From an uncultured Sulfitobacter sp. (GTDB lineage: Bacteria > Pseudomonadota > Alphaproteobacteria > Rhodobacterales > Rhodobacteraceae), in contig CALKXT010000138.1 of NCBI GenBank assembly GCA_938003685.1, positions 1-40,828 on the forward strand: DNA of 40,828 nt, in the 5' to 3' direction. The notes below the pieces were generated by a model, which saw nothing but the letters and a program-made list of their open reading frames with translations, searched no databases and was not told the DNA's origin. This document shows, piece by piece, positions 1,817-31,950 of the stretch; the first letter of the stretch is position 1, and each line of letters begins with the position of its first letter. The position numbers and the translations under genes are program-made.

Positions 1817-1830
1817 GCGCAGACCTCTCT

Positions 1831-2289
1831 CTAGATACATTTAAAATAATCGAAAGGCTCAAGGCAGTCTTTGCACTGCCATTGCGCCTTGCACGGGGTC
1901 GACCCAAACTGGCTGATCCGCGCGACATGGGTGGATTTGCAGCGTGGGCAACATTCAGGACCACCCGCAGCACGGGGCGGGGCGATGCCATATTCCATCA
2001 GTTTCGCGCGCGCCTCTTCTTTGAGCCAATCAGAGGTCCATGGTGGGCTGATCTGGTTTTTGATGCGAATGTCATCCAACCCGCGATCCCGCAACGCCGT
2101 TTCAATATCAAGTGATATCACTGATGTTGCAGGGCAGCCTGAATAGGTGGGCGTCACGGCCACTTCTACGGTATCGCCGTCCCATCGCACGCCGCGCACA
2201 ATGCCCAAATCAACAACAGATATCACCGGAATTTCCGGGTCAGGAACATCGGCTAGCCAGTCCCAAATCGTGTCGACGCTGGGTTTCAT
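1831..2289 (-). CDS. paaD: Epoxidase maturation protein PaaD (MIP18/DUF59 family)
   Basis: PaaD is an accessory protein of the phenylacetyl-CoA epoxidase, thought to help insert or maintain Fe-S clusters. The N-terminal half is a DUF59/MIP18 domain with the family signature DPEIPVISVVDLGIV and a TYSGCPAT motif containing its conserved cysteine. The C-terminal tail has two CxxC pairs (CPRC and CKDC), typical of PaaD and probably metal-binding. The protein has 152 residues, close to the usual length. Its ATG lies 1 nt after the paaC stop, so the genes are likely translationally coupled. Confidence 0.93.
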   Translation of the reverse strand: MKPSVDTIWDWLADVPDPEIPVISVVDLGIVRGVRWDGDTVEVAVTPTYSGCPATSVISLDIETALRDRGLDDIRIKNQISPPWTSDWLKEEARAKLMEYGIAPPRAAGGPECCPRCKSTHVARISQFGSTPCKAQWQCKDCLEPFDYFKCI

Positions 2290-2290
2290 C

Positions 2291-3052
2291 TTACCAGCTG
2301 GCCCCAGGATAAGCGCGCTGCAACCACTGCATCTGCGTCAGTATGTGACCCAAGTGTTCACTATGTTGAAAGCCTGATTTGCCGCCCTGATGGGCAAAGT
2401 TACTGTCAGGGATCGCCAATGTCGCTTCGGACAACACCTGACCAATATGCGTATCAAAACCTACACGTAGCTTCGTCAAATCAGGCGCGATGCCCGCCTC
2501 TGCCATCGCAGTGTCCACTGCATCGGGTGTGAACAATTCACCAACGTAAGGCCATAGAAGATTCAGCGCCTTTTGCATGCGTTCGTGGCTTTGTGCCGTC
2601 CCATCACCCAAAGCGATCACTGTGTCGCCAGAGCGTTCTACATGATATTGTACTTCTTTGATCGCCTTCGCGGCAATCTCGGCCACGCGCTGTTCGCTTG
2701 AGTTTTGCAATTCTGTGAGCATGGCAAGGTGCCACGCATCAAACAGAAATTGGCGCATCATTGTCTGGCCGAAATCTCCGTTTGGCTGTTCGCATAGCAA
2801 GCAATTGCGAAAATCCCATGCGTCACGCAACATCGCGATGTCATCGGCACTGCGCCCCTCACCTTCGACTTCGCCAGCAAGACCCAGCCACATCTGCGTT
2901 TGACCAATCATGTCTAACGCTGTGTTTGCCAGTGCTATGTCTTCTTCCAATATAGGCGCATGGCCGCACCATTCGCTGACGCGGTGGCCGAGAACGAGGG
3001 TGTTGTCCCCCATGCGGCACAGGAATTCAAAGTAAGCAGTAGTGTCGGTCAT
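2291..3052 (-). CDS. paaC: Phenylacetyl-CoA epoxidase structural subunit PaaC
   Basis: PaaC is the ferritin-fold subunit that forms the heterodimeric core with PaaA but lacks a working diiron site. The 253-residue translation has the family N-terminus FLCRMGDNTLVLGHRVSEW and the typical helical pattern, including LTELQNSSEQRVAEIAAKA. The reading frame can begin at a GTG at 3055 or at the next codon, an ATG at 3052. I chose the ATG because it overlaps the paaB stop by one base (TGATG), the usual coupling arrangement. It sits between paaB and paaD. Confidence 0.95.
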   Translation of the reverse strand: MTDTTAYFEFLCRMGDNTLVLGHRVSEWCGHAPILEEDIALANTALDMIGQTQMWLGLAGEVEGEGRSADDIAMLRDAWDFRNCLLCEQPNGDFGQTMMRQFLFDAWHLAMLTELQNSSEQRVAEIAAKAIKEVQYHVERSGDTVIALGDGTAQSHERMQKALNLLWPYVGELFTPDAVDTAMAEAGIAPDLTKLRVGFDTHIGQVLSEATLAIPDSNFAHQGGKSGFQHSEHLGHILTQMQWLQRAYPGASW

Positions 3053-3390
3053 CACATCGCCCCTACTTCATCTGGGATGTCGAAAAAGGTTGGATGACGG
3101 TAGACTTTGGATTCAGACGGCTCATACAGAGGGCCTTTTTCAGAAGGCGAAGACGCCGCAATATGGCGCGCTTCGACAACCCAGATGCTGACACCTTCGT
3201 TGCGGCGTGTATACACATCGCGGGCGTTCTTGATCGCCATTTCTTCGTCAGGCGCATGCAAACTGCCCACGTGGCGATGGCTCATGCCGTGCTGCCCACG
3301 AATGAACACTTCCCACAACGGCCATTCCTGACGCTTGGCTTTTGTCTGTGTTGCAGGTGTCTCGGGATATGCTGAATTTGGAGAGCTCAT
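3052..3390 (-). CDS. paaB: Phenylacetyl-CoA epoxidase subunit PaaB
   Basis: PaaB is the small bridging subunit of the PaaABCE multicomponent oxygenase. The 112-residue protein contains the conserved core [20 protein letters not shown], then a short segment on alignment of vitamin-like repeats ending in the hydrophilic [12 protein letters not shown] stretch. The N-terminus is somewhat longer than in enterobacterial PaaB, with a Pro/Thr-rich leader of about 20 residues. The ATG overlaps the paaA stop by 4 nt (ATGA), and its own stop overlaps paaC by one base. Confidence 0.95.
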
Positions 3391-4361
3391 TCTGCTGCAA
3401 CCTTTCTGATTTTACGTTTCTCCGCATGGGCCATCATGCCATCGCGCACCCATTTGCCATCGTCCCACGCCTTGTTGCGCGCGGCGAGGCGTTCGGTGTT
3501 GCACGGTCCGTTGCCTTTCAAGACCTCGAAAAATTCATCCCAGTTAGGTTCGGCAAAATCATAGCCACCCTTTTCGTCATTCCATTTTAGTGTTTTGTCT
3601 GGAACGGTCAGCCCAAGGTATTCAGCCTGCGGGACGGTCTGGTCGACAAACTTTTGACGCAGTTCGTCATTTGTGTTCATCTTGATTTTCCATTTCATTG
3701 ACTGCTCAGAATGGGTGCTTTCGGCATCTGAGGGGCCGAACATCATCAAGGATGGAAACCAAAGGCGGTTCAATGCATCCTGGGCCATTTTCTTTTGGGC
3801 TGGCGTGCCATTCGCCATCTTCATCATGATGTCATAGCCTTGGCGCTGATGGAAAGATTCCTCTTTGCAGATGCGGACCATCGCGCGGGCATAAGGGCCA
3901 TAAGATGTGCGTTGCAGCGGTACTTGGTTCATGATTGCGGCACCATCAACCAGCCACCCCACAGCGCCCATATCGGCCCATGTAAGAGTCGGATAGTTGA
4001 AGATCGACGAATATTTCATCCGCCCATCCAACAGCATTTCGGTCAATTCATCGCGGGTGACGCCAAGTGTTTCCGCACCGCAATACAGGTATAATCCATG
4101 CCCGGCCTCATCCTGTACTTTTGCCAACAGGATCGCTTTGCGTTCAAGCGTCGGTGCGCGGGTGATCCAATTGCCTTCGGGCAGCTGACCCACGATTTCA
4201 GAATGTGCGTGTTGACCCATCTGACGGATCAACGTCTTGCGATACCCCGCAGGCATCCAATCTTTAGGTTCAATTTTTTCACCCGCATCGATACGCGCCT
4301 GAAAGGCAATTGCCTCTGCGCTTTCGTCGGTGGATTCGGATTTTACCATCTGTGCATACAT
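3387..4361 (-). CDS. paaA: Phenylacetyl-CoA 1,2-epoxidase catalytic subunit PaaA
   Basis: PaaA holds the diiron centre that epoxidises the ring of phenylacetyl-CoA, the committing step of aerobic phenylacetate breakdown. The 324-residue translation shows both iron-binding helices: [15 protein letters not shown] with E-x-x-H, and [14 protein letters not shown] with the second E-x-x-H. Length and motifs match canonical PaaA. The ATG at 4361 has a strong GGGAGGA about 7 nt upstream. It lies 20 nt after the thiolase stop and overlaps paaB by 4 nt, so it is the first epoxidase gene of the operon. Confidence 0.97.
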
Positions 4362-4381
4362 TAGAAATTCCTCCCGAGGTC

Positions 4382-5584
4382 TTAGATACGTTCAATAATG
4401 ATAGCGCTGCCTTGGCCCACGCCCACACACATTGTGCAAAGCGCATAGCGCCCGCCACCACGTTTTAACTGGTGGGCCGCCGTAAGGACCAAACGCGCAC
4501 CGGACATGCCAAGCGGATGACCCATCGCAATGGCGCCCCCCCATGCGTTGACGCGCGGATCATCATCGGCAACGCCCAATTCTCGCAACGTGGCAAGGCC
4601 CTGCGCAGCAAAGGCTTCGTTCAATTCGATCACGTCCATCTGATCAATTGTCAGGCCGGCACGTGCCAGTACTTTTTGGCTCGCCGGGACTGGGCCGACC
4701 CCCATGACGCGAGGGGCGACACCTGCGGACGACATGCCAACAATGCGCGCCATCGGGGTTAGCCCATGCTGCTTTGCGGCGGCCTCTGACGCAATCAGTA
4801 AGGCTGCGGCACCATCATTTACGCCGCTGGCGTTACCCGCTGTGACACTCATGTTAGGGCCATTCACACCTTTGAGGGTCGACAGCTTCGCCGCATCCGT
4901 GCCGGGGCGGGGGTGTTCGTCCGTGTCAAAGATGACCGGGTCACCCTTGCGCTGGGGGATGGCAACGGAACATAGCTCATCCGCGAATGACCCTGCTTTA
5001 TGTGCAGCGGCCCACCGGGCCTGTGAGCGTGCGGCAAAAGCGTCTTGATCTGCGCGGCTTATGCCATAATCCTCTGCGACGTTGTCCGCAGTCTGTGGCA
5101 TCGAATCCACGCCATATTGCGCTTTCATCTTTGGGTTAATAAAGCGCCAGCCAATCGTGGTGTCATAGACAGTGTTGGCGCGGGTGAACGCGCTGGTGGC
5201 TTTGGGCATGACGAAAGGTGCGCGGCTCATGCTTTCTACACCACCTGCAACGGTCAGGTCATAATCGCCTGCCTTGATGCCACGTGCGGCAAACCCGACA
5301 GCATCCATGCCACTGGCGCACAGACGGTTGATCGTCGTGCCGGGCACATCTTCTGGCAATCCTGCCAGCAATGCGGCCATGCGCGCCACATTGCGGTTGT
5401 CTTCACCAGCTTGGTTCGCAGATCCATAAATAACGTCGTCGACACGGGACCAATCAACGCTAGGGTTGCGCTCCATCAATGCGGTGATGGGCAACGCGGC
5501 AAGGTCATCTGTGCGCACGGACGATAATGCACCACCATATCGACCGATTGGTGTTCTGACGCCATCACAAATCAAAGCTTCCAC
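4382..5584 (-). CDS. paaJ: 3-oxoadipyl-CoA/3-oxo-5,6-dehydrosuberyl-CoA thiolase
   Basis: This thiolase would cleave the 3-oxoacyl-CoA intermediates at the end of the phenylacetate (and beta-ketoadipate) pathway, releasing acetyl-CoA. Visible motifs are the acyl-accepting cysteine in [11 protein letters not shown], the histidine region [16 protein letters not shown], and the C-terminal catalytic cysteine in [11 protein letters not shown]. The longest frame begins with a GTG at 5593, but that codon lies inside the AGGGAG binding site. A GTG three codons later, at 5584, has this site about 8 nt upstream and gives an N-terminus like PaaJ/PcaF ([17 protein letters not shown]). The length is 400 residues. 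It is first in the paa operon. PcaF activity cannot be excluded because the two are close homologues. Confidence 0.9.
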
Positions 5585-5607
5585 GAATAGCACTCCCTAG
5601 AATTAGT

Positions 5608-12795: not shown

Positions 12796-14046
12796 TTGAC
12801 AGGATTTTTGGTCGTTTGCATGGTTACTGTTGGGTATTCGATGGTGGCAAAACGCTTGTCATCGTCCATGCTGACGGCGCCGATGGTGTTTATATGTGTT
12901 GGTGTGGTTCTATCCATATCGGGATTGTTGTCGGAACATGATACGCACGTGCTACTACATCCAGTGGCTGAGATTGCCCTCGTCATTTTGTTGTTTCTGG
13001 ATGCTGCACAGATTGATCTGGTGGCGCTGCGCAAACGGCATGTCTGGCCGACGCGCATGTTATTGATCGGGTTGCCTGCTGCGGTTGCATTAGGGTCTTT
13101 AGCGGGGGCAATTCTGTTTCCAGCTTGGCCCTTTGCAGCTGTTGCGCTAATCGCAGCGATCCTTGCGCCCACAGATGCAGCACTTGGTCAGGCGGTGGTA
13201 ACAAACCCAAATGTTCCGATGCGCCCGCGGCGTGCATTGACTGTGGAAAGTGGATTGAACGATGGTTTGGCACTGCCGGTCATTTTGTTTTTTGCCAGTC
13301 TAACAGCAGCCGAAGCAACAGCGCAGGGTGAGGAGTGGCTGATTTTTGGTGCCAAACAAATATTGTTAGGTCCTCTGGTCGGTATATTGGTTGGTGCAGT
13401 TGGGGGTTTGGTCCTTTTGCGTGCCAAAGCGCTACGCACAACATCTGACACGTATGAAGGAATTGGCGCGCTTGCCTTGGCCGGTGCGGCCTATCTGGGT
13501 GCGGTCCAAATTGGCGGCAATGGGTTTATTTCTGCGTTTGCAGCGGGGTTGGCGTTTGGCGGTATCATCAAAGGCGCGTGCAAATTTGTTTACGAGTTCA
13601 CCGAAAGCGAAGGTCAGCTGTTAGCATGGGCGGCATTCTTGTTGCTTGGGGGTGCATTGGTGCCTGACGCAGTGGCGCATCTGACGTGGCAAATGCTGGC
13701 ATTGATACTGCTCAGCCTGTTTGTTGTGCGTCCATTGGCGATCTGGGTTTCTTTAATCGGCACAGATGCAGCACCAATCACGCGTTTGTTTTTTGGCTGG
13801 TTTGGACCACGCGGATTGGCGACAGCCCTGTTCGCTTTGTTGGTCGTTGAACAAATTTCACATGAATACGGCGAGCAGATATTACACATCGCCGTGAACG
13901 CGGTCTGGATAAGTGCGTTGTTGCATGGACTAACTGCCGCACCCGCTGCCAAATGGTATGGTGCAAAAATGGCGGACATGGGGGATGTGGCCGAAACTCA
14001 AGACATCAAAGGCAGTGCGCTGCCGATCATCACAAAAAGCGATTGA
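12796..14046 (+). CDS. Na+/H+ antiporter-like membrane protein (CPA1 family), TTG start
   Basis: The 416-residue protein is almost entirely hydrophobic, with about twelve membrane segments and the fold signature of CPA1 monovalent cation:proton antiporters. VALIAAILAPTDAALGQAVV contains the PTD motif near the transport site, and VESGLNDGLALPVILFF carries the ESGLND motif of this family. A later segment, FFGWFGPRGLATALFALL, holds the conserved arginine region. The start appears to be TTG at 12796, with AAGGGA 9 nt upstream. It lies 28 nt before the Rieske/FMN gene and on the same strand, so it is probably the first gene of that operon and may couple its redox work to ion flow. The coupling is inference. 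Confidence 0.85.
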   Translation: MTGFLVVCMVTVGYSMVAKRLSSSMLTAPMVFICVGVVLSISGLLSEHDTHVLLHPVAEIALVILLFLDAAQIDLVALRKRHVWPTRMLLIGLPAAVALGSLAGAILFPAWPFAAVALIAAILAPTDAALGQAVVTNPNVPMRPRRALTVESGLNDGLALPVILFFASLTAAEATAQGEEWLIFGAKQILLGPLVGILVGAVGGLVLLRAKALRTTSDTYEGIGALALAGAAYLGAVQIGGNGFISAFAAGLAFGGIIKGACKFVYEFTESEGQLLAWAAFLLLGGALVPDAVAHLTWQMLALILLSLFVVRPLAIWVSLIGTDAAPITRLFFGWFGPRGLATALFALLVVEQISHEYGEQILHIAVNAVWISALLHGLTAAPAAKWYGAKMADMGDVAETQDIKGSALPIITKSD

Positions 14047-14074
14047 TGCAAAACCATTGATAACAGGGACAGCT

Positions 14075-15685
14075 ATGACAAAGACAGCCATCTACAAACT
14101 AAGCGCGCTAGCAGACAGAAAACCAGAATACGCTCTCGTCGGTGAGGTTGATCTTGTCGTGGTCCGTTTTGATGATGAAATTTCCGTGTTTTACGGGCGT
14201 TGTCTGCACCGCGGCGCGTTGATGTCTGACGGTCATGTGCGTGGTAAGGATTTGATCTGTGGTGTACACAACTGGGATTACCGGTTGGACACAGGTGTGT
14301 CGGCTTATGCCAATCAGGAAAAGCTGCCCAAGTTTAAATCATGGGTTGAAGGGGATGACATTTGCGTAGATGCCGACGAAATCAACGCATGGGGTCAAGA
14401 GAATCCGCAGCCCTATAACCGCGATGCGTATCTAGGGCTGTATGCGGACACGAGCCATGGCACTGACGAAGAACCTTACACGGGGCTGATTCAGCAATAT
14501 GCGCGCAGCGGGTTAACCAAGACGGGACATCACGGCGCGATGACGTCAATGGGTGTACCTCGCAATGAATTGCCCAATTGGGACGATATTCAAATCTTGA
14601 CGGCACAATTGGCAAAGCCGCCCCTGTTAGACCAAGACCCTGTTGGGACTGAAGTGATCATCGGACCTAACGCCAAAAAGCCACTGCGCCTCGAAATTCC
14701 ATTGTTTGTCTCTGACATGTCGTTTGGGGCCTTATCAGAAACCGCCAAAGTGGCACTGGCTGTCGGGGCGGAAATGGCAGGTACAGGCATTTGTTCTGGT
14801 GAAGGCGGCATGCTACCTGAAGAACAGGCTGCCAATAGCCGCTATTTTTATGAACTGGCATCGGCGCGGTTCGGATTTAGCTGGGATAAGCTGGATCATG
14901 TGCAGGCTTTTCATTTCAAAGGCGGGCAGGGGGCCAAGACTGGGACAGGTGGTCACCTTCCGGGCAACAAAGTGCAGGGCAAAATTGCAGAGGTCCGTGG
15001 ACTTGAACCGGGAAGCGCAGCGGTTTCGCCACCACGCTTTCCCGAATGGACCGACGTTGGCCAGATCAAGGAATTTGCCGATCAGGTACGCACGCGCACG
15101 GGTGGTATTCCGATTGGCTATAAACTTAGCGCACAGCACATCGAAAAAGATATCGATGCCGCATTAGAGGTTGGTGTGGACTACATCATTCTTGACGGGC
15201 GTGGTGGTGGTACAGGTGCGGCCCCAATCATTTTCCGTGATAACATTTCTGTTCCGACGATCCCGGCACTTGCCCGCGCCCGCGCGCATCTGGACAAATT
15301 GGGGCGCGGTGATGTTTCACTGGTGATTACTGGTGGCCTGCGAAAACCCGCCGACTTTATCAAAGCGCTGGCGATGGGGGCGGACGCGATTGCGGTGTCC
15401 AATTCGGCCATGCAAGCGATCGGGTGTCTCGCGATGCGCGCCTGTAATACCAACAATTGTCCTGTCGGTATCGCAACACAAAAGCCAAATCTGGTCAGCC
15501 GATTGTTGGTCGATCGATCCGCACAGCAACTTGCAAATTTCTTTAGCGCGTCTACTGAATTGATGCAGGTGATGGCGCGGGCGTGTGGACACGATCATGT
15601 GTCAAAGTTCAACCAAGACGACCTTACCACATGGAAACGTGACATGGCTGACCTGACGGGTGTTGCCTTTGGGGGCATCTCGTGA
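14075..15685 (+). CDS. Rieske [2Fe-2S] domain fused to glutamate-synthase-type FMN/Fe-S barrel
   Basis: Residues 1-100 form a Rieske domain with C43-x-H45 and C62-x2-H65 as ligands (motif C-x-H-x16-C-x2-H). From about residue 160 the protein is a TIM barrel of the glutamate synthase central/FMN family, with VSDMSFGALSETAKVAL, FKGGQGAKTGTGGHLPG and LDGRGGGTGAAP. It also has the 3Fe-4S cysteine triplet C451-x5-C457-x4-C462 (CNTNNCPVGIATQ). The glutaminase domain of true GltB is absent. So it has FMN and two Fe-S centres in one 536-residue cytoplasmic chain, but no visible ammonia source. I chose the ATG at 14075, with AGGGAC upstream, over an extension into the antiporter gene. It overlaps the next gene by 4 nt. 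Reaction unknown. Confidence 0.85.
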   Translation: MTKTAIYKLSALADRKPEYALVGEVDLVVVRFDDEISVFYGRCLHRGALMSDGHVRGKDLICGVHNWDYRLDTGVSAYANQEKLPKFKSWVEGDDICVDADEINAWGQENPQPYNRDAYLGLYADTSHGTDEEPYTGLIQQYARSGLTKTGHHGAMTSMGVPRNELPNWDDIQILTAQLAKPPLLDQDPVGTEVIIGPNAKKPLRLEIPLFVSDMSFGALSETAKVALAVGAEMAGTGICSGEGGMLPEEQAANSRYFYELASARFGFSWDKLDHVQAFHFKGGQGAKTGTGGHLPGNKVQGKIAEVRGLEPGSAAVSPPRFPEWTDVGQIKEFADQVRTRTGGIPIGYKLSAQHIEKDIDAALEVGVDYIILDGRGGGTGAAPIIFRDNISVPTIPALARARAHLDKLGRGDVSLVITGGLRKPADFIKALAMGADAIAVSNSAMQAIGCLAMRACNTNNCPVGIATQKPNLVSRLLVDRSAQQLANFFSASTELMQVMARACGHDHVSKFNQDDLTTWKRDMADLTGVAFGGIS

Positions 15686-16059
15686 GCCAAGCTGAAATAA
15701 TTTTGATGGCGTTGCGCATTTGGGGCAGCATTGGTGCTGTGGTGGCGGCCATATTTTTGACCATTGGCATCGATCGAATAGATGAAGATGCCAGAGGCAC
15801 CTATGTTTTTCGTCCTTTGTTGATCCCTGGCGTGCTGGTGATCTGGCCGTTTGTATTGTGGCGCTGGTATATCTACGAAACGCAGGGCGAGGTTTTGCAC
15901 CGCCGATATGCGCCACCGCGCAAGGCTCATTTTGCAGTGGGCATGATACTGCCCGCAGGGATAGCACTGATCATTCTTACAGGGCTGAACATCCGCCAGA
16001 CATGGCCATCCGACGTTGAACCCATCCGTCTTTCTGCGCCCTTGGAGGTCAGCCAATGA
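15682..16059 (+). CDS. Small membrane protein of the Rieske operon
   Basis: This 125-residue protein has three likely membrane helices: residues 8-28, a second around FRPLLIPGVLVIWPFVLWRWY, and a third around FAVGMILPAGIALIILTG. A basic stretch (HRRYAPPRKAHF) lies between the last two. It begins with GTG at 15682, overlapping the previous stop by 4 nt (GTGA), and overlaps the next ATG by 4 nt. I do not recognise the family. Its place directly before the cytochrome-b-like gene suggests a membrane subunit or assembly partner. Confidence 0.75.
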   Translation: MSQAEIILMALRIWGSIGAVVAAIFLTIGIDRIDEDARGTYVFRPLLIPGVLVIWPFVLWRWYIYETQGEVLHRRYAPPRKAHFAVGMILPAGIALIILTGLNIRQTWPSDVEPIRLSAPLEVSQ

Positions 16060-17126
16060 GCGTTAAATACGTCCCCGTTCAATGGAACAAAAACAAATGG
16101 ATTTATGATTGGGTGATGCTGCTGGGTGTTGCAGTTTTTCTGTACGTTTTCCTGTACGCTTCCCCCGGCATCTTGAGCCATGAACGTCCGATCAATCCAC
16201 AGGTCCACAATGCGCGTGCCTTTGGCGCCTGCGCATTTGTGATGCTGACTGTGATTTTGTGCATCGGTCCGTTGGCGCGGCTAGATAAGCGGTTTTTGCC
16301 ACTTCTGTACAACCGCCGCCATTTTGGTGTGATGACCACCTTTGTCGCGATCACACATGCATCTTATATCATTGATTGGTATTTTGCGTTTGCAAGCTCG
16401 GATAAATACGAAGCCTTGCTGTTTGCCAACACAAGTTATGGGCAATTATCGGGCTTCCCTTTCGAAGTCTTTGGCATTTTCGCGTTGAGCGTATTGATCA
16501 TTCTGGCCGTGACCAGTCATGATTTCTGGATGAAGTTCCTGACTGCACCGGTTTGGAAGCGCATCCATTATCTGATTTACCCGGCCTATTTGTCAGTTGT
16601 AGCACATGTCAGTTTGGGCATTTTGCAAGACCAACAAGCTCATGCCTTTACTGTGATATTTATCAGCGGTGCAACGGCAGTTGGTGTGCTGCATCTACTC
16701 GCGGCTATACATGAACGGCGTCAAGATAAAGCCATCACAGCGCAACCCGCTACATGGATCGATGTTTGTGATGTCAGTGATATGACCGAAGGGTTTGCCC
16801 GCATCAAACTCCTACCTGATGGCAAAAGGGTCGCGGTGTTTCTGATGGACGGACAATTGAGCGCCATTTCAAATGCGTGTGCGCACCAAAACGGCCCGTT
16901 GGGCGAAGGACGCATTATCGCCTGTCTGGTGACTTGTCCGTGGCATGGCTTTCAATACAATGTACGCAATGGGCAATCCCCAGCGCCGTTCACTGAAAAA
17001 GTTCCAACCTACAATTTGCGCATGCAAGGGACATCCGTGCAGGTGGACCCAAATGCCAATCCACCTGGCACGCCAGTTGATCCTGTCCCGTCACCTTTGC
17101 ACCCGCAAACGGAGGGGGCGACATGA
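16056..17126 (+). CDS. Ferric-reductase-like cytochrome b membrane domain with C-terminal Rieske domain
   Basis: Residues 15-220 form about six membrane helices resembling the ferric reductase/MsrQ (YedZ) family. Candidate haem-b ligands are H101, H171 and H184; the 13-residue spacing of the last two matches what I recall of MsrQ. From residue 230 follows a soluble Rieske domain with C275-x-H277 and C294-x2-H297 (motifs CAHQNGPLGEG and CPWHGFQYN). The tail is proline-rich. The fusion would put a cytochrome b and a [2Fe-2S] cluster in one membrane protein and could pass electrons between a soluble partner and the quinone pool. ATG overlaps the preceding stop by 4 nt, and the next ATG overlaps its stop by 4 nt. 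Partner and direction are inferred. Confidence 0.83.
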   Translation: MSVKYVPVQWNKNKWIYDWVMLLGVAVFLYVFLYASPGILSHERPINPQVHNARAFGACAFVMLTVILCIGPLARLDKRFLPLLYNRRHFGVMTTFVAITHASYIIDWYFAFASSDKYEALLFANTSYGQLSGFPFEVFGIFALSVLIILAVTSHDFWMKFLTAPVWKRIHYLIYPAYLSVVAHVSLGILQDQQAHAFTVIFISGATAVGVLHLLAAIHERRQDKAITAQPATWIDVCDVSDMTEGFARIKLLPDGKRVAVFLMDGQLSAISNACAHQNGPLGEGRIIACLVTCPWHGFQYNVRNGQSPAPFTEKVPTYNLRMQGTSVQVDPNANPPGTPVDPVPSPLHPQTEGAT

Positions 17127-17884
17127 GCAGCAACAACAAACCTTTCTTTGTCGGATATTTGTCTGCACCCGGTCCCTTGCGGCGTTTTCTGCTGGCAATT
17201 TGCGTCTTGTTCATTGTGGGGTTCGCTGCACTTGGCCTCACGCTTGGTGTGGCCCAGGACGACCCGGGACCCGGGGCATTTAGGTTCGATTATGGCCGCC
17301 AGACTGTTACGGGGGTGATTGAACTCACACCCTACCCATTGGTACGCGTTACCATCGGCAATGATCGGATCAAGCCGGGCACAACCTTGATGTTAGCAGG
17401 GCAAGGCAAAAGCAGTGTCGACAAACGTGCTATTCCGCTGGAAGGGCAATTGGCAAAAGTTTCCGGCGTAGTTTTGCAACGCGGAGATTTAAACATGTTG
17501 CAACTGCGTGGTGGCAGGAATGGTATTTCCGCAGTTGAGGGTGCGGCATCAAAACAAACGCGTGAACCATTGGGTCGCTGGAAACTTGCGGGTGAGATTT
17601 GTGATGGCAAATGCCTTGCGGGTGCGATGCGTCCAGGACGTGGGCTGGCACACAAGGCGTGTGCTAACCTGTGTCTGCTTGGCGGGGTGCCACCCGTCTT
17701 TGTGTCGACCCAAGAAGTTGATGGATCAGAGTTCTTGCTGATCACCGGGCCTGATGGTGATGCGCTGCCCAAATCCGCTTATGATTATGTCGCGCAGTTT
17801 ATCACTGTTGAAGGTGATGTTGAACGACGTGGCGATCTGTTGGTGTTTCGAATGGATCCCGATACATTGGAGGTTCTGGAATAA
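17123..17884 (+). CDS. Membrane-anchored protein with conserved-looking four-cysteine motif
   Basis: One N-terminal membrane helix (about residues 20-44) follows a basic region, so the remaining 200 residues probably face the periplasm. The centre has a beta-rich stretch (residues 55-145). Then comes a compact motif with C160-x3-C164, H177 and C180-x3-C184, followed by GGVPPVFV. This looks like a metal, Fe-S or disulfide site rather than chance. I have a vague memory of similar sequences in uncharacterised proteins but can name no family. It overlaps the preceding gene by 4 nt and the next by 1 nt, so it is part of the operon. It might receive electrons or help build the cytochrome. Confidence 0.78.
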   Translation: MSSNNKPFFVGYLSAPGPLRRFLLAICVLFIVGFAALGLTLGVAQDDPGPGAFRFDYGRQTVTGVIELTPYPLVRVTIGNDRIKPGTTLMLAGQGKSSVDKRAIPLEGQLAKVSGVVLQRGDLNMLQLRGGRNGISAVEGAASKQTREPLGRWKLAGEICDGKCLAGAMRPGRGLAHKACANLCLLGGVPPVFVSTQEVDGSEFLLITGPDGDALPKSAYDYVAQFITVEGDVERRGDLLVFRMDPDTLEVLE

Positions 17885-18165
17885 TGCGCCGTATTACAAC
17901 TATGACCATTGTCGCTATTTTGGCTGCAATCATGTTCTACCTTTCGCGGTTCTGGTTTCTATCACTTTGGCCAAGATCGGGCTTGTTTGGTGTTGAACAA
18001 TTGCGCCCTCAAGGGGGGCTGTTGGCTGGATGGTTGCGCGGTACAGATGCCGCGCCTTTTGAACTGATGATCTGGGCGATTGGCTGCTTTATTGTGCTGA
18101 CCTATGCCCAAAAGTTCTACGACCGCCTCATTACGAAATTTAATGCAGGAGAATCCCATGATTGA
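17884..18165 (+). CDS. Small two-helix membrane protein of the Rieske operon
   Basis: This 93-residue protein has two hydrophobic segments, about residues 6-27 and 58-76, joined by a loop with GGLLAGWLRGTDAAPFE. Its ATG overlaps the upstream stop by one base. Its own end overlaps the Rieske-thiamine enzyme by 8 nt. I do not recognise it. The size and place suggest a membrane anchor or docking subunit for the soluble Rieske-ThDP enzyme that follows. Confidence 0.7.
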   Translation: MRRITTMTIVAILAAIMFYLSRFWFLSLWPRSGLFGVEQLRPQGGLLAGWLRGTDAAPFELMIWAIGCFIVLTYAQKFYDRLITKFNAGESHD

Positions 18166-20137
18166 TGAAAGCCTCGATTGGATCAGCGTCGGCCACATTG
18201 ACGATTTACCCGAAGGCCGCGTGAAAACAGTAACCGCAAGGACAACTTCAATTTGCCTTGTGCATTTTGACGGGCAATGGGCTGCGATGAACAACCACTG
18301 CCCGCACCAACGTGGTCCGTTGGGGGAGGGCTCAATTGAAAAAGGTGTGGATGATAAATGCTGGATCCGCTGCCCATGGCATGGTTGGGACTTTGATCCC
18401 TTGACGGGTAAACCGCCGGGCGGGCACGAGGACAGTGGGCAAGACACGTATCCCGTAGACATCCGTAACGGAGAGATTTTTGTAGGGATTGAGGCCGAAG
18501 CACCCCATGAACGCACAGTAACGGATGTGATGGTGGACACTCTTGCGAACTGGGGTGTGCAGTCGGTGTTTGGCATGGTGGGACATTCCAATCTTGGTCT
18601 GTCGGATGCGATCCGCATCGCGGTGAGTGATGGGAAAATGACCTATTATGGCATCCGCCACGAAGGGGCAGCGGCGTTTGCCGCATCAGCCTATGGTAAG
18701 TTAACGGGCACACCTGCGGCTTGTCTGACCATTGCTGGACCCGGGGCGACCAACCTGCTTACAGGCTTGTGGGACGCAAAAGTTGACCGCGCGCCAGTAT
18801 TGGCGTTGACAGGTCAGGTCCAAACGCAAGTCATGGGACCGGGGGCGTTTCAAGACATTGACCTGCTATCAGCCTTTGCCGCTGTCACTGCATTTTCGCA
18901 GCCCGTTTTGGGCAGCTCAAACCATGCAGAATTAGCATCGCTGGCTTGCAAAACGGCAATCGTAGAACAGAATGTAGCGCATCTGATCTTCCCTGATGAC
19001 GTTCAAACCAACCCGTCTGATCAAGCTGCAGGATCACCCCAAGGACGTGTCACTCAGGCACCGATCCTGCCTGCGCAAAGCGAGATTTCCAAAGCAGTTG
19101 AGATGATCAAGGGTGCCAAACGCGCGTTGATCGTTGTGGGGCATGGCGCATATTCGCACCGTAACGATATTATTGCCTTGGCCGAAAGCCTTGGCGCGAC
19201 GGTGCTGACAACATTTAAAGCCAAAGGGCTTATTCCCGACAGTCACCCCAACGCGGGCGGCGTTCTGGGGCGTTCTGGCACGCCCATCGCAAGCTGGTTT
19301 ATGAACGAAGCCGATTTGATCATCGCGCTTGGCACCAGCTTTTCAAATCACACAGGCATCAACGCTGGAAAACCGATCATTCAGGTCGACCATGAGCGCA
19401 TGCAATTGGGTAAATTCCACCCTGTTGCTTTGCCAATTTGGGGCGATGTTGGTGCGTTCTGCGATGCGTTACGCAGTGCAGATTGCGAGAATTCAGCTGC
19501 TGATAAACAAATCCCTGAACTGGCAGTGCGTTGGGACATTTGGAGGCGTGAAAAGCAAACGCGCTTGCAGGAAAACCTTGGCAAAGGCATCCACTCCTTT
19601 GCGATTTTCGAAGCGCTTGGCCGATTGGTGCCGGACGACACGATCTTTGCTGTGGATGTGGGCAACAACACATATTCCTTTGGCCGCTATCTGGAAACCA
19701 AGGGCAGCCAGCGCGTGTTGATGTCGGGGTATCTGGGGTCCATAGGGTTTGGATTGCCTGCCGCGATGGGCGCGTGGGCCGCCACGCAGGACAAAGCCGA
19801 TTTGAAGGGTCGCAAAGTCGTATCGATTTCTGGTGATGGTGGGTTTGGTCAATACCCAATGGAGTTTACGACAGCCGTAAAATACGGCATGGATATCACC
19901 CATATCCTTTTGCATAATGGTGAACTTGGAAAGATATCCAAAGAGCAAAAATCGGGCGAATGGCCCGTTTGGGAGACCAATTTACAGAACCCTGGCTTTG
20001 CGGCCTTTGCGCGGCTTTGCGGTGGGCATGGCATCAAGGTAACCGACCCAACTGATATTGAGACCGCCATTCAGGAAGCGTTGGATCACAAAGGTCCGGC
20101 ACTTGTGGAAATCATGACAGATGCTGATCTGGTCTAA
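18158..20137 (+). CDS. Rieske [2Fe-2S] domain fused to pyruvate-oxidase-like ThDP enzyme
   Basis: Residues 1-110 form a Rieske domain with C48-x-H50 and C72-x2-H75. The spacer is 21 residues, longer than the 16 in the two other Rieske proteins here. From about residue 118 the chain is a full ThDP enzyme of the POX/AHAS type. It has a PYR domain with VFGMVGHSNLGLSD and the cofactor-activating E169 in RHEG, a central domain (residues 315-440), and a PP domain with GDG at 559-561 and N587. The VGHSNLGLSD region resembles pyruvate oxidase PoxB more than acetolactate synthase. PoxB's C-terminal membrane helix is absent. It might oxidatively decarboxylate a 2-oxo acid and pass electrons to the Rieske cluster. 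The ATG at 18158 has GCAGGAG 7 nt upstream. Confidence 0.85.
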   Translation: MIDESLDWISVGHIDDLPEGRVKTVTARTTSICLVHFDGQWAAMNNHCPHQRGPLGEGSIEKGVDDKCWIRCPWHGWDFDPLTGKPPGGHEDSGQDTYPVDIRNGEIFVGIEAEAPHERTVTDVMVDTLANWGVQSVFGMVGHSNLGLSDAIRIAVSDGKMTYYGIRHEGAAAFAASAYGKLTGTPAACLTIAGPGATNLLTGLWDAKVDRAPVLALTGQVQTQVMGPGAFQDIDLLSAFAAVTAFSQPVLGSSNHAELASLACKTAIVEQNVAHLIFPDDVQTNPSDQAAGSPQGRVTQAPILPAQSEISKAVEMIKGAKRALIVVGHGAYSHRNDIIALAESLGATVLTTFKAKGLIPDSHPNAGGVLGRSGTPIASWFMNEADLIIALGTSFSNHTGINAGKPIIQVDHERMQLGKFHPVALPIWGDVGAFCDALRSADCENSAADKQIPELAVRWDIWRREKQTRLQENLGKGIHSFAIFEALGRLVPDDTIFAVDVGNNTYSFGRYLETKGSQRVLMSGYLGSIGFGLPAAMGAWAATQDKADLKGRKVVSISGDGGFGQYPMEFTTAVKYGMDITHILLHNGELGKISKEQKSGEWPVWETNLQNPGFAAFARLCGGHGIKVTDPTDIETAIQEALDHKGPALVEIMTDADLV

Positions 20138-20323: not shown

Positions 20324-21850
20324 ATGCCAATGCTGTCTCTCTTTGATCCACTCATAGAGAATTCCAAATGGTTAGCGGTCGCCGCTGTCGTTGTTCTGGG
20401 TGTATGGCTGTTTGGAAAGCAGACCGCATTGCTAAGACGTGTGGTAAAAATCCATCCGGTCAAATCTGCATTGGTAGACTTGATCGCTGCCCCCATGATG
20501 ATCTTGCTGTTCGGGAGCTTCGTTCAGAGAATTTCGACAATTTACGGCCCTGCAGGTATCAACGGTCGGATCGCTGACTTTGTATTTCTAATCTTATTAC
20601 TGTCCACCACATGGTGCCTTGCCCGTTTGGTCGAACTGTTTTTCTTGTCTATCTACAAACAGGATGACGCGTCCTATTTACCCGGCTTACAACGCGGTCT
20701 TTTGTTCAGTGGGTTTCTGTTCGCGGGCCTTGTAACTTTCTTATACCTGCAAGGCTATTCAATCACGGGTCTATCTATCTCGACCGGCGCAGTTGCAGCA
20801 TTGGTTGCCTTTGCTATGCAGCAAACCCTAGGCGATTTGTTTTCAGGTATCGCCTTGAGCATCGAACACCCCTTCAAACTGGGAGAACGCATTCGCCTTT
20901 CCGATGGTTCTGAAGGCAAGGTTGTTGATATTAACTGGCGCGCAACACGACTGCTTGCCTGGGATAATTCAACATTGGTAGTGCCAAACAGTGATTTGGC
21001 CAAACAAGGATTCACTAACCTTCATGGCTTTGATCATCCTTATGCGCCTTGGTATGAAGTTAAGATACCAGCAGAAGTAGACCCCCGCCTTGCCCGCGCA
21101 ATACTGCTTGAGGCCGCGTTGAAGTGCAGCAAAATCCTAAAATTCCCACTTCCTGTTGTGCGTCTTACCGACGCAACCACCGTTCCTTATACCTATATGA
21201 TCTGGGTGCATTTTCCGAATTATCCCTCAATGTTTGCAGGGCGTGAACAGCTTTTTCAAGAAATCCACTATGCTTTGAAAGATGTCGGTGCCCAGGTTTC
21301 ACCAAGTATAAATGAACTTCACACCCGACGGGCCGACACCATGCAAGTTGAGCCTCCAACAACGATACTGGCTCTCAAGATGCTCGATATCGCCAAATCT
21401 CTTTCAGACAAAGAACTGGAAGACGTCGCTGAGATGAGCAATCACATAACCATTGAGGCAGGTACAGTAATTATCTCAGAAGGAGAGGTTGCGCAATTTA
21501 TCGACGTCATAATTCACGGAGTCGTTGAAACCAGCGTCATGACGGCGACTGGTGTGCCTAGAGTTGTTGATCAACTCAGGTCCGGGCAATATTTTGGGCT
21601 GACCTCAATGCTCATGGATTCCCCGTCGTTTATGCAATTTAGCGCATCAACGAATGTGACACTCATTCGAATTAATATTGAGTGTTTGCGCAAGATACTC
21701 GTCAATCGACCCGATCTGCATGATGAATTTGCGATCATCATGAAACAGCGCATAGACAATGCTCAAAATGCACGATTGGCAAGCGCCCAAACCGGTAAAC
21801 GCTTTACGGTCAAGGACTTCTTGCACCGTATGGAGCAATGGGGCTCGTAG
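20324..21850 (+). CDS. MscS-family channel with C-terminal cyclic-nucleotide-binding-like domain
   Basis: N-terminal residues 15-165 hold about four membrane helices, the last forming the MscS pore-lining type (AVAALVAFAMQQTLGDLFSGIALSIE). The MscS beta domain follows, with GERIRLSDGSEGKVVDINWRAT and VPNSDL, then an alpha/beta part up to residue 340. Residues 350-480 resemble a cNMP-binding fold, as in bCNG channels. Its phosphate-binding cassette is degenerate: FGLTSMLMDSPSFMQFSA (424-441) lacks the usual FGE glutamate and the PR arginine. A 186-nt gap separates it from the Rieske operon, and it faces a GntR gene end to end. It probably responds to membrane tension; ligand control is uncertain. 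Confidence 0.85.
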   Translation: MPMLSLFDPLIENSKWLAVAAVVVLGVWLFGKQTALLRRVVKIHPVKSALVDLIAAPMMILLFGSFVQRISTIYGPAGINGRIADFVFLILLLSTTWCLARLVELFFLSIYKQDDASYLPGLQRGLLFSGFLFAGLVTFLYLQGYSITGLSISTGAVAALVAFAMQQTLGDLFSGIALSIEHPFKLGERIRLSDGSEGKVVDINWRATRLLAWDNSTLVVPNSDLAKQGFTNLHGFDHPYAPWYEVKIPAEVDPRLARAILLEAALKCSKILKFPLPVVRLTDATTVPYTYMIWVHFPNYPSMFAGREQLFQEIHYALKDVGAQVSPSINELHTRRADTMQVEPPTTILALKMLDIAKSLSDKELEDVAEMSNHITIEAGTVIISEGEVAQFIDVIIHGVVETSVMTATGVPRVVDQLRSGQYFGLTSMLMDSPSFMQFSASTNVTLIRINIECLRKILVNRPDLHDEFAIIMKQRIDNAQNARLASAQTGKRFTVKDFLHRMEQWGS

Positions 21851-28424: not shown

Positions 28425-28810
28425 TAAGTAGATCCTCCAGATCGAGCGCTTTTGCGCTACTTTTATATTTGGGAACGGACAATCTTTGACTGCCGTTTGT
28501 TTCCACCCCGAAAAACGTGGCTTGGACCAAAGGCTACATCATAGACTATACTGTCGGCAATCATAATGTTATTGAATGCCCATTAATGCACTTGAAATGT
28601 CGCCAAAGCTTAGATTCCAGCAACAAATGCAAAGAGATAGATTTTTTGAATTTCAAGAGCCTTCAAGCCAAATTACGTCAGCCGCGCATTTTTTTGGCAA
28701 AGACAGCAGGGCGAATCTCGTTAATGATACGTCAAAGTCACCAAGCGGCTCAAAACCGTAATGATACGCCACCGCACGATAAAAAAGCGACCAATGGGAG
28801 AGAGTTAAAG
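28425..28810. other. 386-nt divergent intergenic region with a hairpin and repeats
   Basis: No gene is convincing here; the open frame leading into the ATP-grasp gene has no protein-like composition. Near dctP is a short stem, AGCGC/GCGCT with a TTTT loop (28445-28458), in what would be its 5' leader. Near the ATP-grasp gene the 10-mer TAATGATACG occurs twice, at 28722-28731 and 28759-28768, 37 nt apart. These repeats could bind a regulator. The last 15 nt hold the GGGAGAG ribosome site. Confidence 0.4.
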
Positions 28811-30265
28811 ATGGCCGAGACAAAAGAGAAGCTAGTCGGATTGACAGAAATCTATCGCTATTTGCGGCGCAACAAGACGCCGATTTATGTGGTAATGCCG
28901 ACACCGTTCAACCTGATGGGGTTGGATCAATGGGTCGGCGGATTGGAATTCGTTAACTACTTTGATGTCTTTGACGGCCAACACCCACGGATCTTTAAGC
29001 CAACCCAGATTGGAGCGCCAGTTTTCCAGTCGATGGAAGATGTTGGGAACTATCTGGTCGACCATCCCGAATTTCGCGCGCGTGTCGCTGAACGCGATCC
29101 GGGTTTGGCGGTCTTTGTGATGTTCGATGAGAAAACCGAAGAACTGTGCGAGGAACTTGGCGTCAAAATTGCGCTGCCTTCGAACGAGTTGCGCCACCGC
29201 TTGGACAGCAAGATCGAAACCACACGTCTAGGAAATGAAGCAGGCGTTGAAAGTGCGCCTAATGTGATGGGCACGGCGGATACTTACGCCAAGCTGAACA
29301 AACTGGCAGCCACCGCTAAGTTGGGTAAAGATTTGGTGGTTCAGACACCTTATGGCGATAGCGGTCGCACGACCTTCTTTATCAAGTCAAAAAAGGAATG
29401 GGATAAGTTCTCAAGCAAGATTATCGGTGAAGAATTGAAGGTGATGAAGCGTATCAATCACCTACCAGGAACGATCGAGGGTTGTGCAACACGACACGGC
29501 ACTCTTGTTGGCCCAGTCATGACCGACATCACGGGTTTTGAAGAAATCACACCCTACAAAGGTGGCTGGTGTGGCAATGACATTTCGCCTGCAATTCTAC
29601 CGGATGGCGTACCTGACAAGGTGCGCGAGATGGCCCGTAAGCTGGGCGATCGACTTTATCAAGAGGGTTACAAGGGTGTTTTCTGTACCGACTTCCTTCT
29701 CGATACCGACACCAACGAAGTTTATCTGGGTGAGATTAACCCACGGGTTTCTGGGGCATCACCGCCGACCAATTTGATCACCTCTACCTATGGGGGCTGC
29801 CCGATGTTCCTGTTCCATCTGTTGGAATATATGGATGTTGAGTACGAGATTGATATCGAAGAAGTACAAAGCCGCTGGAACCACTACGATTACTGGACTC
29901 AACTGATCCTCAAACAAACCGAAGATAAAGTTGAATTGATCACGCAGGCACCACGTTCCGGTATATGGAAGATGGATGATGACGGCGCGATTGAATTCGT
30001 GCGGGCGGGCCACAATATCAACGCCTTGGGTGACGAAGAAGAAGCATTCTATCTGCGTGTCTATGGTGCGGGCGAATATTGCTATCATGGTGCTGATCTG
30101 GGCTGTATTTTGGCGCGAGGTCGGATGCAATCGGATGACCGCGAACTGCTAGACCGTGCAAAACATTGGAACAGCGCGATCAAAGCAGAATTCAAGTCTG
30201 TGCCGTTAACCGCAGCCACCGAAGTTGCAATGCCTGCGGATATGACTGCGGGAAAGTGGTTCTAA
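28811..30265 (+). CDS. ATP-grasp ligase (biotin-carboxylase-like)
   Basis: The 484-residue protein has an ATP-grasp fold. Its central segment KLGKDLVVQTPYGDSGRTTFF looks like the glycine-rich ATP loop. The metal-binding end reads FCTDFLLD (D294 region) then LGEINPRVSGAS (E308, N310). The C-terminal 150 residues are less typical. Annotation by similarity would probably say biotin carboxylase-like, but I see no biotin carrier gene nearby, so an amide- or peptide-bond-forming ligase is more likely. I chose the ATG at 28811, with GGGAGAG about 9 nt upstream. Downstream are a small orphan on the other strand, an Ntn hydrolase and an amidase, a pattern of making and breaking amide bonds. Substrate unknown. 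Confidence 0.83.
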   Translation: MAETKEKLVGLTEIYRYLRRNKTPIYVVMPTPFNLMGLDQWVGGLEFVNYFDVFDGQHPRIFKPTQIGAPVFQSMEDVGNYLVDHPEFRARVAERDPGLAVFVMFDEKTEELCEELGVKIALPSNELRHRLDSKIETTRLGNEAGVESAPNVMGTADTYAKLNKLAATAKLGKDLVVQTPYGDSGRTTFFIKSKKEWDKFSSKIIGEELKVMKRINHLPGTIEGCATRHGTLVGPVMTDITGFEEITPYKGGWCGNDISPAILPDGVPDKVREMARKLGDRLYQEGYKGVFCTDFLLDTDTNEVYLGEINPRVSGASPPTNLITSTYGGCPMFLFHLLEYMDVEYEIDIEEVQSRWNHYDYWTQLILKQTEDKVELITQAPRSGIWKMDDDGAIEFVRAGHNINALGDEEEAFYLRVYGAGEYCYHGADLGCILARGRMQSDDRELLDRAKHWNSAIKAEFKSVPLTAATEVAMPADMTAGKWF

Positions 30266-30858: not shown

Positions 30859-31950
30859 ATGAACCTGAACTTCAGAAGCCTGACAGAAGAACGCCCTTCT
30901 GACGCCTTGCGGCAAGTGTTTGCGCATGGCTGGCCAGGTTGGTCTGAATGGATGCGTAAACGCCATACCACCAGCACAACGGATGTACGCGATGCGCGTC
31001 TTGCCCTGCGTCGACATATGCCTGAATTTGAAAGCCTTTGGGACACTTGGGTCGACGTTTGTGGCGATGATCCTGATGCTGCCTTGTTCCTTAGTTTTTG
31101 GTCACCACCCCGCTATCTAGTGCATTGTTCACAGGCCGTGTTTATTGACGATCAAGGCCCGCTGTTGATCCGCAACTACGACCTTGATCCCAAGCTCAAT
31201 GAATCCACACTATTGTCGACCAACTGGCGCGGGCGGCGTGTCATGGGGATGGTTGAAGGGATCGTAGGATTGGCGGACGGCATGAACGATGCTGGTCTGG
31301 CTGCATCACTCACGTTTGGTGGACGCACAGTCAGTTCCAACGGTTTTGGTATCCCGCTGATCATCCGCTACGTTCTTGAGATGTGCGCAGATGTGCAACA
31401 AGCCGTTGAAGCGCTGCGTGCTGTGCCGTCTCATATGTCTTATAACGTCACGGTGGCTGATGAGGCTGGCGATTGGGCAACCGTTATGATGGCACCTGAC
31501 AGGCCAGCAATTGTCACGCACAGCCCGTTTACAACCAATCACCAACTTGGTGTTGAATGGCCACGCCACGGCAGGTTTTCAAATACTCAGGGGCGTGCGG
31601 ATCACCTTGAGACGGTCTTTGAAAATGCGAATCTGACCACCGATCAATTGATCGGTGAATTCCTGACCGCGCCGCTGGCCAGCACTGGATATGACAAAGG
31701 TTTTGGCACGATTTATACAGCCGCATATCGCCCGCAAGCACGGACAATGTCATTGCTTTGGATGGATGGTTCCTACGAAAATCATGATCTGGAGGGCATC
31801 ATGCCAAGCGAACGCTTGGTTCATTATTCGCCAACTGGGTCACAAAGTATTTCTCATGGCTTGAGCCAACAATTCGCTCCGTCGGATGAAAAAAAATCAC
31901 ATTATGCGGCCCCCTTTTTTGGCGGACTGCCCCTTCCCACTACAGCTTAA
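30859..31950 (+). CDS. C45-type N-terminal nucleophile hydrolase/acyltransferase-like protein
   Basis: The centre of this 363-residue protein resembles the C45/AAT family (acyl-CoA:6-APA acyltransferase, carcinine hydrolase), whose members self-cleave before a cysteine that then attacks an amide. The matching motif is HCSQAVFIDDQGPLLIRNYD. It has a candidate nucleophile C90 followed by Ser, then the family's RN-[YM]-D element near residues 105-108. Residues 1-89 would be the pro-segment. Cytoplasmic, as there is no signal peptide. The ATG at 30859 has a weak ribosome site. It lies 38 nt upstream of the amidase, so they may form one operon. It probably hydrolyses an amide of an amine or amino acid. 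Confidence 0.78.
   Translation: MNLNFRSLTEERPSDALRQVFAHGWPGWSEWMRKRHTTSTTDVRDARLALRRHMPEFESLWDTWVDVCGDDPDAALFLSFWSPPRYLVHCSQAVFIDDQGPLLIRNYDLDPKLNESTLLSTNWRGRRVMGMVEGIVGLADGMNDAGLAASLTFGGRTVSSNGFGIPLIIRYVLEMCADVQQAVEALRAVPSHMSYNVTVADEAGDWATVMMAPDRPAIVTHSPFTTNHQLGVEWPRHGRFSNTQGRADHLETVFENANLTTDQLIGEFLTAPLASTGYDKGFGTIYTAAYRPQARTMSLLWMDGSYENHDLEGIMPSERLVHYSPTGSQSISHGLSQQFAPSDEKKSHYAAPFFGGLPLPTTA

Follow-up and report, generated by a model that had tools for sequence, protein, structure and literature searches.

Between positions 12796 and 20137 of the window, by which we mean the whole 40,828-nucleotide stretch of Sulfitobacter sp. DNA analysed here, seven genes read from the sequence lie on the forward strand (g1 to g7; Table 1). 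Three of them join a Rieske domain to a different partner each: a flavin mononucleotide (FMN) barrel, a membrane cytochrome b and a thiamine diphosphate (ThDP) enzyme. The first two genes are 28 nucleotides (nt) apart, and the successive overlaps from g2 through g7 are 4, 4, 4, 1 and 8 nt. A preliminary description had reported this layout, an antiporter gene leading six overlapping genes at these positions, and it is confirmed on the sequence. It had also proposed one system carrying electrons from a 2-oxo acid or the FMN barrel through the Rieske centres to the cytochrome. The observation stands, and comparison with relatives enlarges it to a conserved, modular and patchily distributed Rieske-linked redox system of alphaproteobacteria; the interpretation as a whole is partly supported.

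Table 1. The seven genes of the operon, with positions in the window
Gene	Positions	Strand	Length (amino acids)	Start	Description	Basis
g1	12796..14046	+	416	TTG	CPA-type cation/proton antiporter	PF00999 Na_H_Exchanger 1.4e-33
g2	14075..15685	+	536		N-terminal Rieske domain and glutamate-synthase-type FMN/[3Fe-4S] barrel	PF00355 2.8e-11, PF01645 3.1e-88
g3	15682..16059	+	125	GTG	Small membrane protein, three hydrophobic stretches	
g4	16056..17126	+	356		YedZ/MsrQ-type ferric-reductase-domain cytochrome b and C-terminal Rieske domain	PF01794 5.9e-12, PF00355 5.8e-14
g5	17123..17884	+	253		One membrane helix and two OB-like domains (predicted)	AlphaFold2
g6	17884..18165	+	93		Small membrane protein, two hydrophobic stretches	
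g7	18158..20137	+	659		N-terminal Rieske domain and PoxB-like ThDP enzyme	Rieske 4.5e-17; TPP_enzyme domains 1.3e-34, 4.5e-33, 3.2e-32

No Pfam family matches g3, g5 or g6 above its cut-off, and the NCBIfam models closest to g1 are potassium/proton antiporters, with a score far under the cut-off. The draft genome to which the window belongs (3.40 Mb, 219 contigs, 84.6% complete) has five Rieske matches, three of which sit in this operon. Judged by g5, its nearest named relatives are titled Roseobacter and Litoreibacter.

The three Rieske domains, in the genes starting at 14075, 16056 and 18158, are recognised by Pfam, and their ligands are invariant. We aligned chosen subsets of full-length homologues (59 rows for g5, 60 for g4, 38 for g2 and 37 for g7). 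Every row keeps C43, H45, C62 and H65 in g2 (38/38), C275, H277, C294 and H297 in g4 (60/60), and C48, H50, C72 and H75 in g7 (37/37), more than chance would give, and the preliminary description's expectation that their ligands are conserved among homologues is borne out. Respiratory Rieske proteins of the bc1/b6f type have two extra cysteines beside the ligands, which form a disulfide (PMC2946596), and by that criterion none of the three motifs has a cysteine at the respiratory-type positions. Another cysteine stands four residues ahead of the second ligand pair in g7 (C68, invariant) and in g4 (C290). The closest relatives of the g4 Rieske domain are dioxygenase ferredoxins. Centres of this kind have potentials near -150 mV. 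The Rieske domains of g2 and g7 would be of the low-potential ferredoxin/oxygenase type. The missing disulfide cysteines and the kinship of the g4 domain are consistent with electron acceptance from flavins.

We used g5 as the marker for relatives. In named genomes 276 stretches encode it, and the best 80 of these, with alphaproteobacterial titles throughout, are called the named loci below. A second set of 30 loci comes from the genomes of the order; the two sets overlap in some genomes, two further loci (L069 and L070) stand outside the counts, and the fetched flanks around the core are sometimes shortened by contig ends. In the named loci g5 is accompanied by g4 and g6 in all 80, by g3 in 77, by g7 in 37, by g2 in 33 and by both g2 and g7 in 24. 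Two of the loci that count as lacking g3 are on contigs that start within g4 (L108, L134), and the third is L122. The order g2-g3-g4-g5-g6-g7 is kept on one strand in 24/80 named loci, that is in all those with both g2 and g7, and in 13/30 order loci; the six genes are therefore found together in relatives, as the preliminary description required. Cultured marine strains with all six side by side include Actibacterium mucosum (L120) and Pseudaestuariivita atlantica (L123). Their overlaps recur as well, among relatives whose open reading frames (ORFs) met the length filter: g2/g3 in 31/31, g3/g4 in 70/71, g4/g5 in 62/67, g5/g6 in 71/73 and g6/g7 in 22/32. The antiporter is an optional member that accompanies g2, present in 12/80 named and 6/30 order loci and never seen there without it.

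Among 292 genomes of the order, 33 match g5, 31 of them strongly and with the window's own genome included; the two weak matches (G244, G099) are outside these 31 core genomes. The marker matches in 17 of 385 genomes of the class (16 near full length) and in 10 of 398 genomes of the phylum (7 near full length), these ten belonging to the same class or nearer; the three draws share genomes, and the class make-up of the phylum draw is not shown. Five of 72,556 plasmid records match, all from Rhizobium, at 44-46% identity. Genes 3 to 6 are an alphaproteobacterial membrane core, of which g6 is recognised in 80/80 named and 26/30 order loci, in only 2/13 class loci and in 0/3 Rhizobium loci.

Relatives divide the operon into two or three modules that also stand separately. 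In one locus (L151) g1, g2 and g7 are consecutive and the core is absent there. Four genomes (G059, G169, G230, G259) have a g2-g7 pair (L153-L156) apart from the core of the same genome, and in L129, L144 and L149 g7 lies beside the core on the opposite strand. In three Rhizobium plasmids (L036-L038) g3-g4-g5 follow an SDR gene, and another ThDP gene, one without a Rieske domain, lies close by on the opposite strand. Separately, we observed a Rieske-less ThDP enzyme and a TPR protein near the core or near g5-like small proteins in L203, L036-L038 and L195, some of which also have an OpgC-like membrane protein or a CoA transferase (names partly by eye).

The centre of the core is g4, which carries a ferric-reductase domain (FRD) and the YedZ/MsrQ pattern of an arginine and three histidines. 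R87, H101, H171 and H184 are invariant (60/60), with spacings of 14 and 13; the same residue set and spacings are given for YedZ and STEAP in PMC3591440, where one surface-proximal heme is proposed. The cytochrome had been called MsrQ-like, and the residue pattern supports this, but the match to the MsrQ/YedZ-type model scores below the model's cut-off. The combination of an FRD with a Rieske domain is already mentioned as a predicted domain architecture in PMC3591440, and the fusion as such is not new. Hydropathy gives g4 five clear stretches, and a weaker sixth can be read around H101. By our own count of these stretches the Rieske domain would be on the cytosolic side.

The AlphaFold2 model of g5 has a mean predicted local distance difference test score (pLDDT) of 83.8. 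We read its elements as one helix and two OB-like domains, and the positive-inside rule predicts the domains to be periplasmic. The motif C160-x3-C164...H177-x2-C180-x3-C184 is invariant (59/59 rows). Compared with the PDB by Foldseek, the predicted fold gave weak matches only, none at E <= 0.001, and a hidden Markov model search gave only a chance-like match and no solved relative. Certain small secreted proteins are remote kin of the C-terminal domain (E 1.1e-7 to 3.3e-4). In L069 (7726-9304), L194, L195, L196 and L198 such proteins adjoin a second small protein and a SCO1/SenC gene, the latter assigned by Pfam in L069 and L195 and by eye in the other three. Neither small protein of L069 matched a Pfam family, and the weak g5 match in G099 (L070) is without SCO1-type neighbours.

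The constant company of g4 and g5 (80/80 named loci) could mean that the core is a transmembrane reductase, in which Rieske-tagged enzymes supply the g4 heme and the heme supplies periplasmic g5 for a STEAP- or MsrPQ-like reduction of metals or disulfides. The invariant cysteines and histidine of g5, the YedZ/STEAP residue set of g4 and the kinship of the g5 C-terminal domain with secreted proteins that have SCO1-like neighbours in several loci would all fit. However, the 70 largest neighbour clusters contained nothing recognisable as a periplasmic substrate or a catalytic partner, the predicted g5 fold resembles nothing solved at the threshold above, the L069 small proteins have no Pfam family and the G099 match lacks the SCO1-type setting. 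We regard such a reductase as unlikely.

The neighbour clusters come from the ORFs of 117 loci and the window, of which we viewed the 70 largest clusters of at least 5 loci. They gave no hint of a substrate. Besides the operon genes and antiporter, the largest were antisense ORFs, Roseobacter/Tateyamaria synteny and mixed ABC, SDR, AMP-binding and TRAP families; AMP-binding and SDR proteins are remote or distant matches, apart from those in the loci where they stand directly upstream of g3. Tungstate- and tricarboxylate-transport-like neighbours were seen by eye in the Roseobacter group and were not used. In L206 and L211 the core adjoins a SPASM-domain protein (by Pfam in L206, by eye in L211) and a YHS-like protein (by eye).

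The enzymes largely co-occur with the core. Of the 292 order genomes, 31 have the core, 26 have g7 and 31 have g2 in its Rieske form; core and g7 are shared by 24, core and Rieske-g2 by 24, and g7 and Rieske-g2 by 23 (Fisher p 9e-27, 6e-23 and 2e-24, values that ignore relatedness and joint transfer). At the level of genera, p lies between 1e-9 and 3e-8, and 8/8 genera with g7 include a core genome (p 3e-9). For g2 and g7 the best 4 or 5 candidates per genome were scored at E <= 1e-100. One genome with an interrupted g2 (G133) was counted as having the Rieske form; in its locus (L165) the two matching parts of the gene are about 200 bases apart. The system is patchy in distribution. Fifteen of the genomes belong to the window's genus; the set occurs in the window's own, the core in G002, and the other 13 lack core, g2 and g7 at the thresholds used.

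The barrel of g2 keeps the three cysteines that correspond to the [3Fe-4S] ligands of glutamate synthase (GltS), C451, C457 and C462 (38/38), and identity to the window protein is at least 77% across the aligned set. K288, E243 and R308, at active-site positions of GltS, are kept in 38/38 rows. In GltS a lysine, a glutamine and an arginine bind 2-oxoglutarate; g2 has the first and last of these as K288 and R308, but His294, equally invariant (38/38), replaces the glutamine, so the substrate of g2 probably differs from that of GltS. Pfam finds no amidotransferase domain in its 536 residues, only the Rieske domain ahead of the barrel, and no gene of the operon encodes one. Elsewhere in the window's own genome (G000:C198:1254-2438) is a second GltS-type barrel, 35% identical to g2, which adjoins a glutamine-synthetase-like gene and two small GltS-like subunits and by eye resembles an N-methylglutamate synthase.

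These features bear on the direction of flow. Glutamate synthases consume electrons, and electrons might run from the quinone pool through g4 and the Rieske domains to g2 for a reaction resembling reductive amination, with g7 making or removing the 2-oxo acid. The retention of K288, E243 and R308 in every row, at positions of the GltS active site, would suit such a reaction. But the potential of ubiquinone is above those of flavin and low-potential Rieske centres, and electrons would have to move uphill; the invariant histidine makes the GltS substrate improbable; and an amidotransferase is missing from both g2 and the operon. The potentials favour the forward direction over the reverse, which we consider very unlikely.

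The barrel also occurs with another tag. Eighteen further genomes matched g2 in the barrel only, and in 17 of them tandem CDGSH motifs stand ahead of a barrel 69-72% identical to that of g2; the eighteenth (G010), a partial barrel with a stop, was left out. In PMC3174974 tandem CDGSH motifs with a glutamate synthase FMN domain form the type 5 architecture of the CISD proteins. The CDGSH form has the same histidine as His294. Its genes lie in L152, where Pfam confirms the CDGSH-GltS fusion, and in L158, L159, L166-L170 and L223-L231. No genome had both forms at E <= 1e-100, and the 17 CDGSH genomes had no second match. The core is present in 24/31 genomes with the Rieske barrel vs 0/17 with the CDGSH barrel (p 1.6e-7, which is too small, as seven of the 17 share one genus). 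When 21 Rieske and 8 CDGSH barrels are placed in one tree, a single branch with 100/100 support separates the forms; the outgroups sit on saturated branches, and the unrooted tree does not give the order in which the tags arose. In L152 the CDGSH barrel gene overlaps a Rieske-ThDP gene, and barrel and ThDP enzyme can therefore stand together regardless of the barrel's tag. In two core-less genomes of one genus (L161, L162) the Rieske-GltS gene and a YedZ-like gene, the latter 27-28% identical to g4, are about 2-3 kb apart, and in L161 the YedZ-like gene adjoins an MsrP-like gene (by eye).

In g7 the N, M and C domains of ThDP enzymes are all present, with E169 at the catalytic position in an RHE motif (37/37) and at least 69% identity to the window protein across the aligned set. 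Its best PDB sequence match is E. coli PoxB (213.7 bits), and a fold search likewise put PoxB first (3eya, E 6.9e-41; its chain has 23 residues fewer than that of 3ey9), with acetohydroxyacid synthase (5.8e-38) and 2-hydroxyacyl-CoA lyase (1e-37) following. The model used has a mean pLDDT of 80, with 58 residues under 50. Against the NCBIfam pyruvate oxidase model g7 scores 374.6, where the cut-off is 742. The alignment with PoxB stops at PoxB residue 527, and five more g7 residues bring the protein to its end at about 532 of 572; the lipid-activation helix of PoxB is residues 558-568 (PMC7245740), and g7 has no such C-terminal membrane helix. PoxB F465, which aids electron transfer from ThDP to flavin adenine dinucleotide (FAD; PMC7245740), is Lys592 in g7 (37/37). 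The middle-domain sequence is compatible with FAD binding, though not decisive.

The enzyme had been described as POX-type and as yielding reduced flavin. Its nearest solved structures are indeed quinone-dependent pyruvate oxidases, closely followed by acetolactate synthases and 2-hydroxyacyl-CoA lyases, but neither the POX type nor reduced flavin as its product is established, given the lysine and the missing helix. These two differences mean that g7 is not a PoxB and that pyruvate is no safe guess as its substrate. Together, the histidine of g2 and the lysine of g7 suggest an acidic substrate.

We think it somewhat probable that the operon encodes a modular electron-transfer system, in which two Rieske-tagged soluble enzymes feed one membrane cytochrome. 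The core g3-g6 would be built around g4, with its cytosol-facing C-terminal Rieske domain as the entry port. The N-terminal Rieske domains of g2 and g7 would hand single electrons to it, Rieske to Rieske, taking the place of the electron exits of their relatives, which are the CDGSH tag on the barrel and the membrane-binding C-terminal helix on PoxB. Electrons would thus pass from the flavins of g2 and g7 through two Rieske centres to the g4 heme and from there most likely to the quinone pool, or to g5, which would cover the periplasmic face of the heme. As g2 and g7 adjoin one another without the core in L151-L156, they probably serve one pathway, perhaps an amino or imino acid/2-oxo acid step followed by ThDP decarboxylation. 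Much of this path had been proposed in the preliminary description and is plausible, with comparative support chiefly from the tag swap and the co-occurrence; its direction, its end in the quinone pool and a 2-oxo acid as substrate are what we infer.

Several observations weigh against this picture. Of the 31 genomes with Rieske-g2, 7 are without the core; g7 is without it in G031 and G102, in the latter beside a CDGSH barrel. Conversely, 5/31 core genomes (G002, G130, G139, G147, G278) have neither g2 nor g7 at E <= 1e-100, the fetched flanks of 34/80 named loci contain neither, and 10/13 mapped class loci are without both nearby. The five genomes and the class loci mean that the core has other uses. 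An SDR gene without a Rieske domain lies 14-52 nt upstream of g3 in the three Rhizobium loci, and an AMP-binding ligase gene, also without one, lies 19-43 nt upstream in L128, L133, L139 and L140 (titled Rhizobiaceae or Hyphomicrobiales), where it occupies the place of g2. YedZ-type cytochromes are expected to have a single heme, located at the outer face (PMC3591440); this position would suit quinone and a periplasmic acceptor equally. The replacement of F465 in g7 counts on the same side, and the co-occurrence itself may stem from joint transfer of linked genes.

Untagged enzymes upstream of the core shift weight towards another explanation, that the genes are neighbours rather than partners: g1, g2 and g7 would form a metabolic operon in which the Rieske domains have other partners or a stabilising role, and the core would be an independent operon often placed between g2 and g7. 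The consecutive g1-g2-g7 of L151, the separate pairs of L153-L156 and the named loci with the core alone in the fetched flank are as expected from this. Against it, the separated pair and the core still reside together in all four genomes concerned, and the CDGSH barrel is never found with the core (0/17). On balance we judge a mere neighbourhood to be quite improbable. Gene order and co-occurrence speak for the single system that the preliminary description had proposed, but its two or three modules are also found apart.

The same untagged genes bear on a broader wiring principle, in which a Rieske-cytochrome b hub is joined by interchangeable cytosolic enzymes that plug in by matching Rieske domains, gaining or exchanging a His-ligated [2Fe-2S] tag when the hub is present. 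The barrel with either CDGSH or Rieske, and the ThDP enzyme with Rieske instead of a membrane helix, would be examples. A ligase or SDR in the place of g2 favours the hub but makes it less likely that all partners bear a Rieske tag, and we put the principle forward only tentatively. If it is true, several oxidations share an entry to the membrane besides complex I, ETF-QO and direct quinone reduction.

If the modular electron-transfer system itself is real, it provides a new route coupling ThDP- and flavin-dependent metabolism to the bacterial membrane and assigns a function to unannotated genes that recur as a conserved operon in marine alphaproteobacteria. The barrel that carries either CDGSH or Rieske would be a natural experiment on how [2Fe-2S] tags set the electron partner. 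Type 5 CISD proteins are not known to have been assayed, and their function would become approachable. We found no description of such an operon or system in open-licence papers; PMC3591440 mentions the FRD-Rieske fusion as such. A search of these papers for a link to homarine gave only work on another subject.

The remainder of the window holds other genes. The first after the operon, 186 nt downstream (20324-21850), encodes a mechanosensitive channel with a C-terminal cyclic-nucleotide-binding domain. Phenylacetate catabolism genes lie on the reverse strand at 749-5593 (Pfam recognises two PaaA_PaaC proteins and a reductase; a thiolase is named by eye). A 582-amino-acid ORF at 28517-30265 has no Pfam match at 1e-5 and is ATP-grasp-like by eye; it precedes an AAT-family acyltransferase (30859-31950) and a carbon-nitrogen hydrolase (31989-32849).

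Each part of the operon has a known counterpart from which it departs. Like YedZ/MsrQ and STEAP, g4 has an FRD domain with an arginine replacing the first canonical histidine and the three histidines of the YedZ set, but it differs by its C-terminal Rieske domain; and unlike MsrQ it has no MsrP gene in its operon, the rest of the genome not having been searched for one. Respiratory Rieske proteins of the bc1/b6f type have the disulfide pair that all three operon motifs lack. Like PoxB and the PQO of Corynebacterium glutamicum, g7 has three ThDP-enzyme domains (536 residues), but with an added N-terminal Rieske domain, no C-terminal helix and Lys592 for F465. The barrel of g2 shares FMN and three [3Fe-4S] cysteines with the glutamate synthase large subunit and the N-methylglutamate synthase barrel; it differs from glutamate synthase in its histidine for the pocket glutamine, its lack of an amidotransferase domain and its added Rieske domain. 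The type 5 CISD proteins have the same barrel as g2, with an identical K288/H294/R308 pattern in the 8 examined, and the N-terminal domains of both hold His-ligated [2Fe-2S] clusters; but theirs is a CDGSH tag where g2 has a Rieske domain, and none of the 17 genomes with the CDGSH form has the membrane core.

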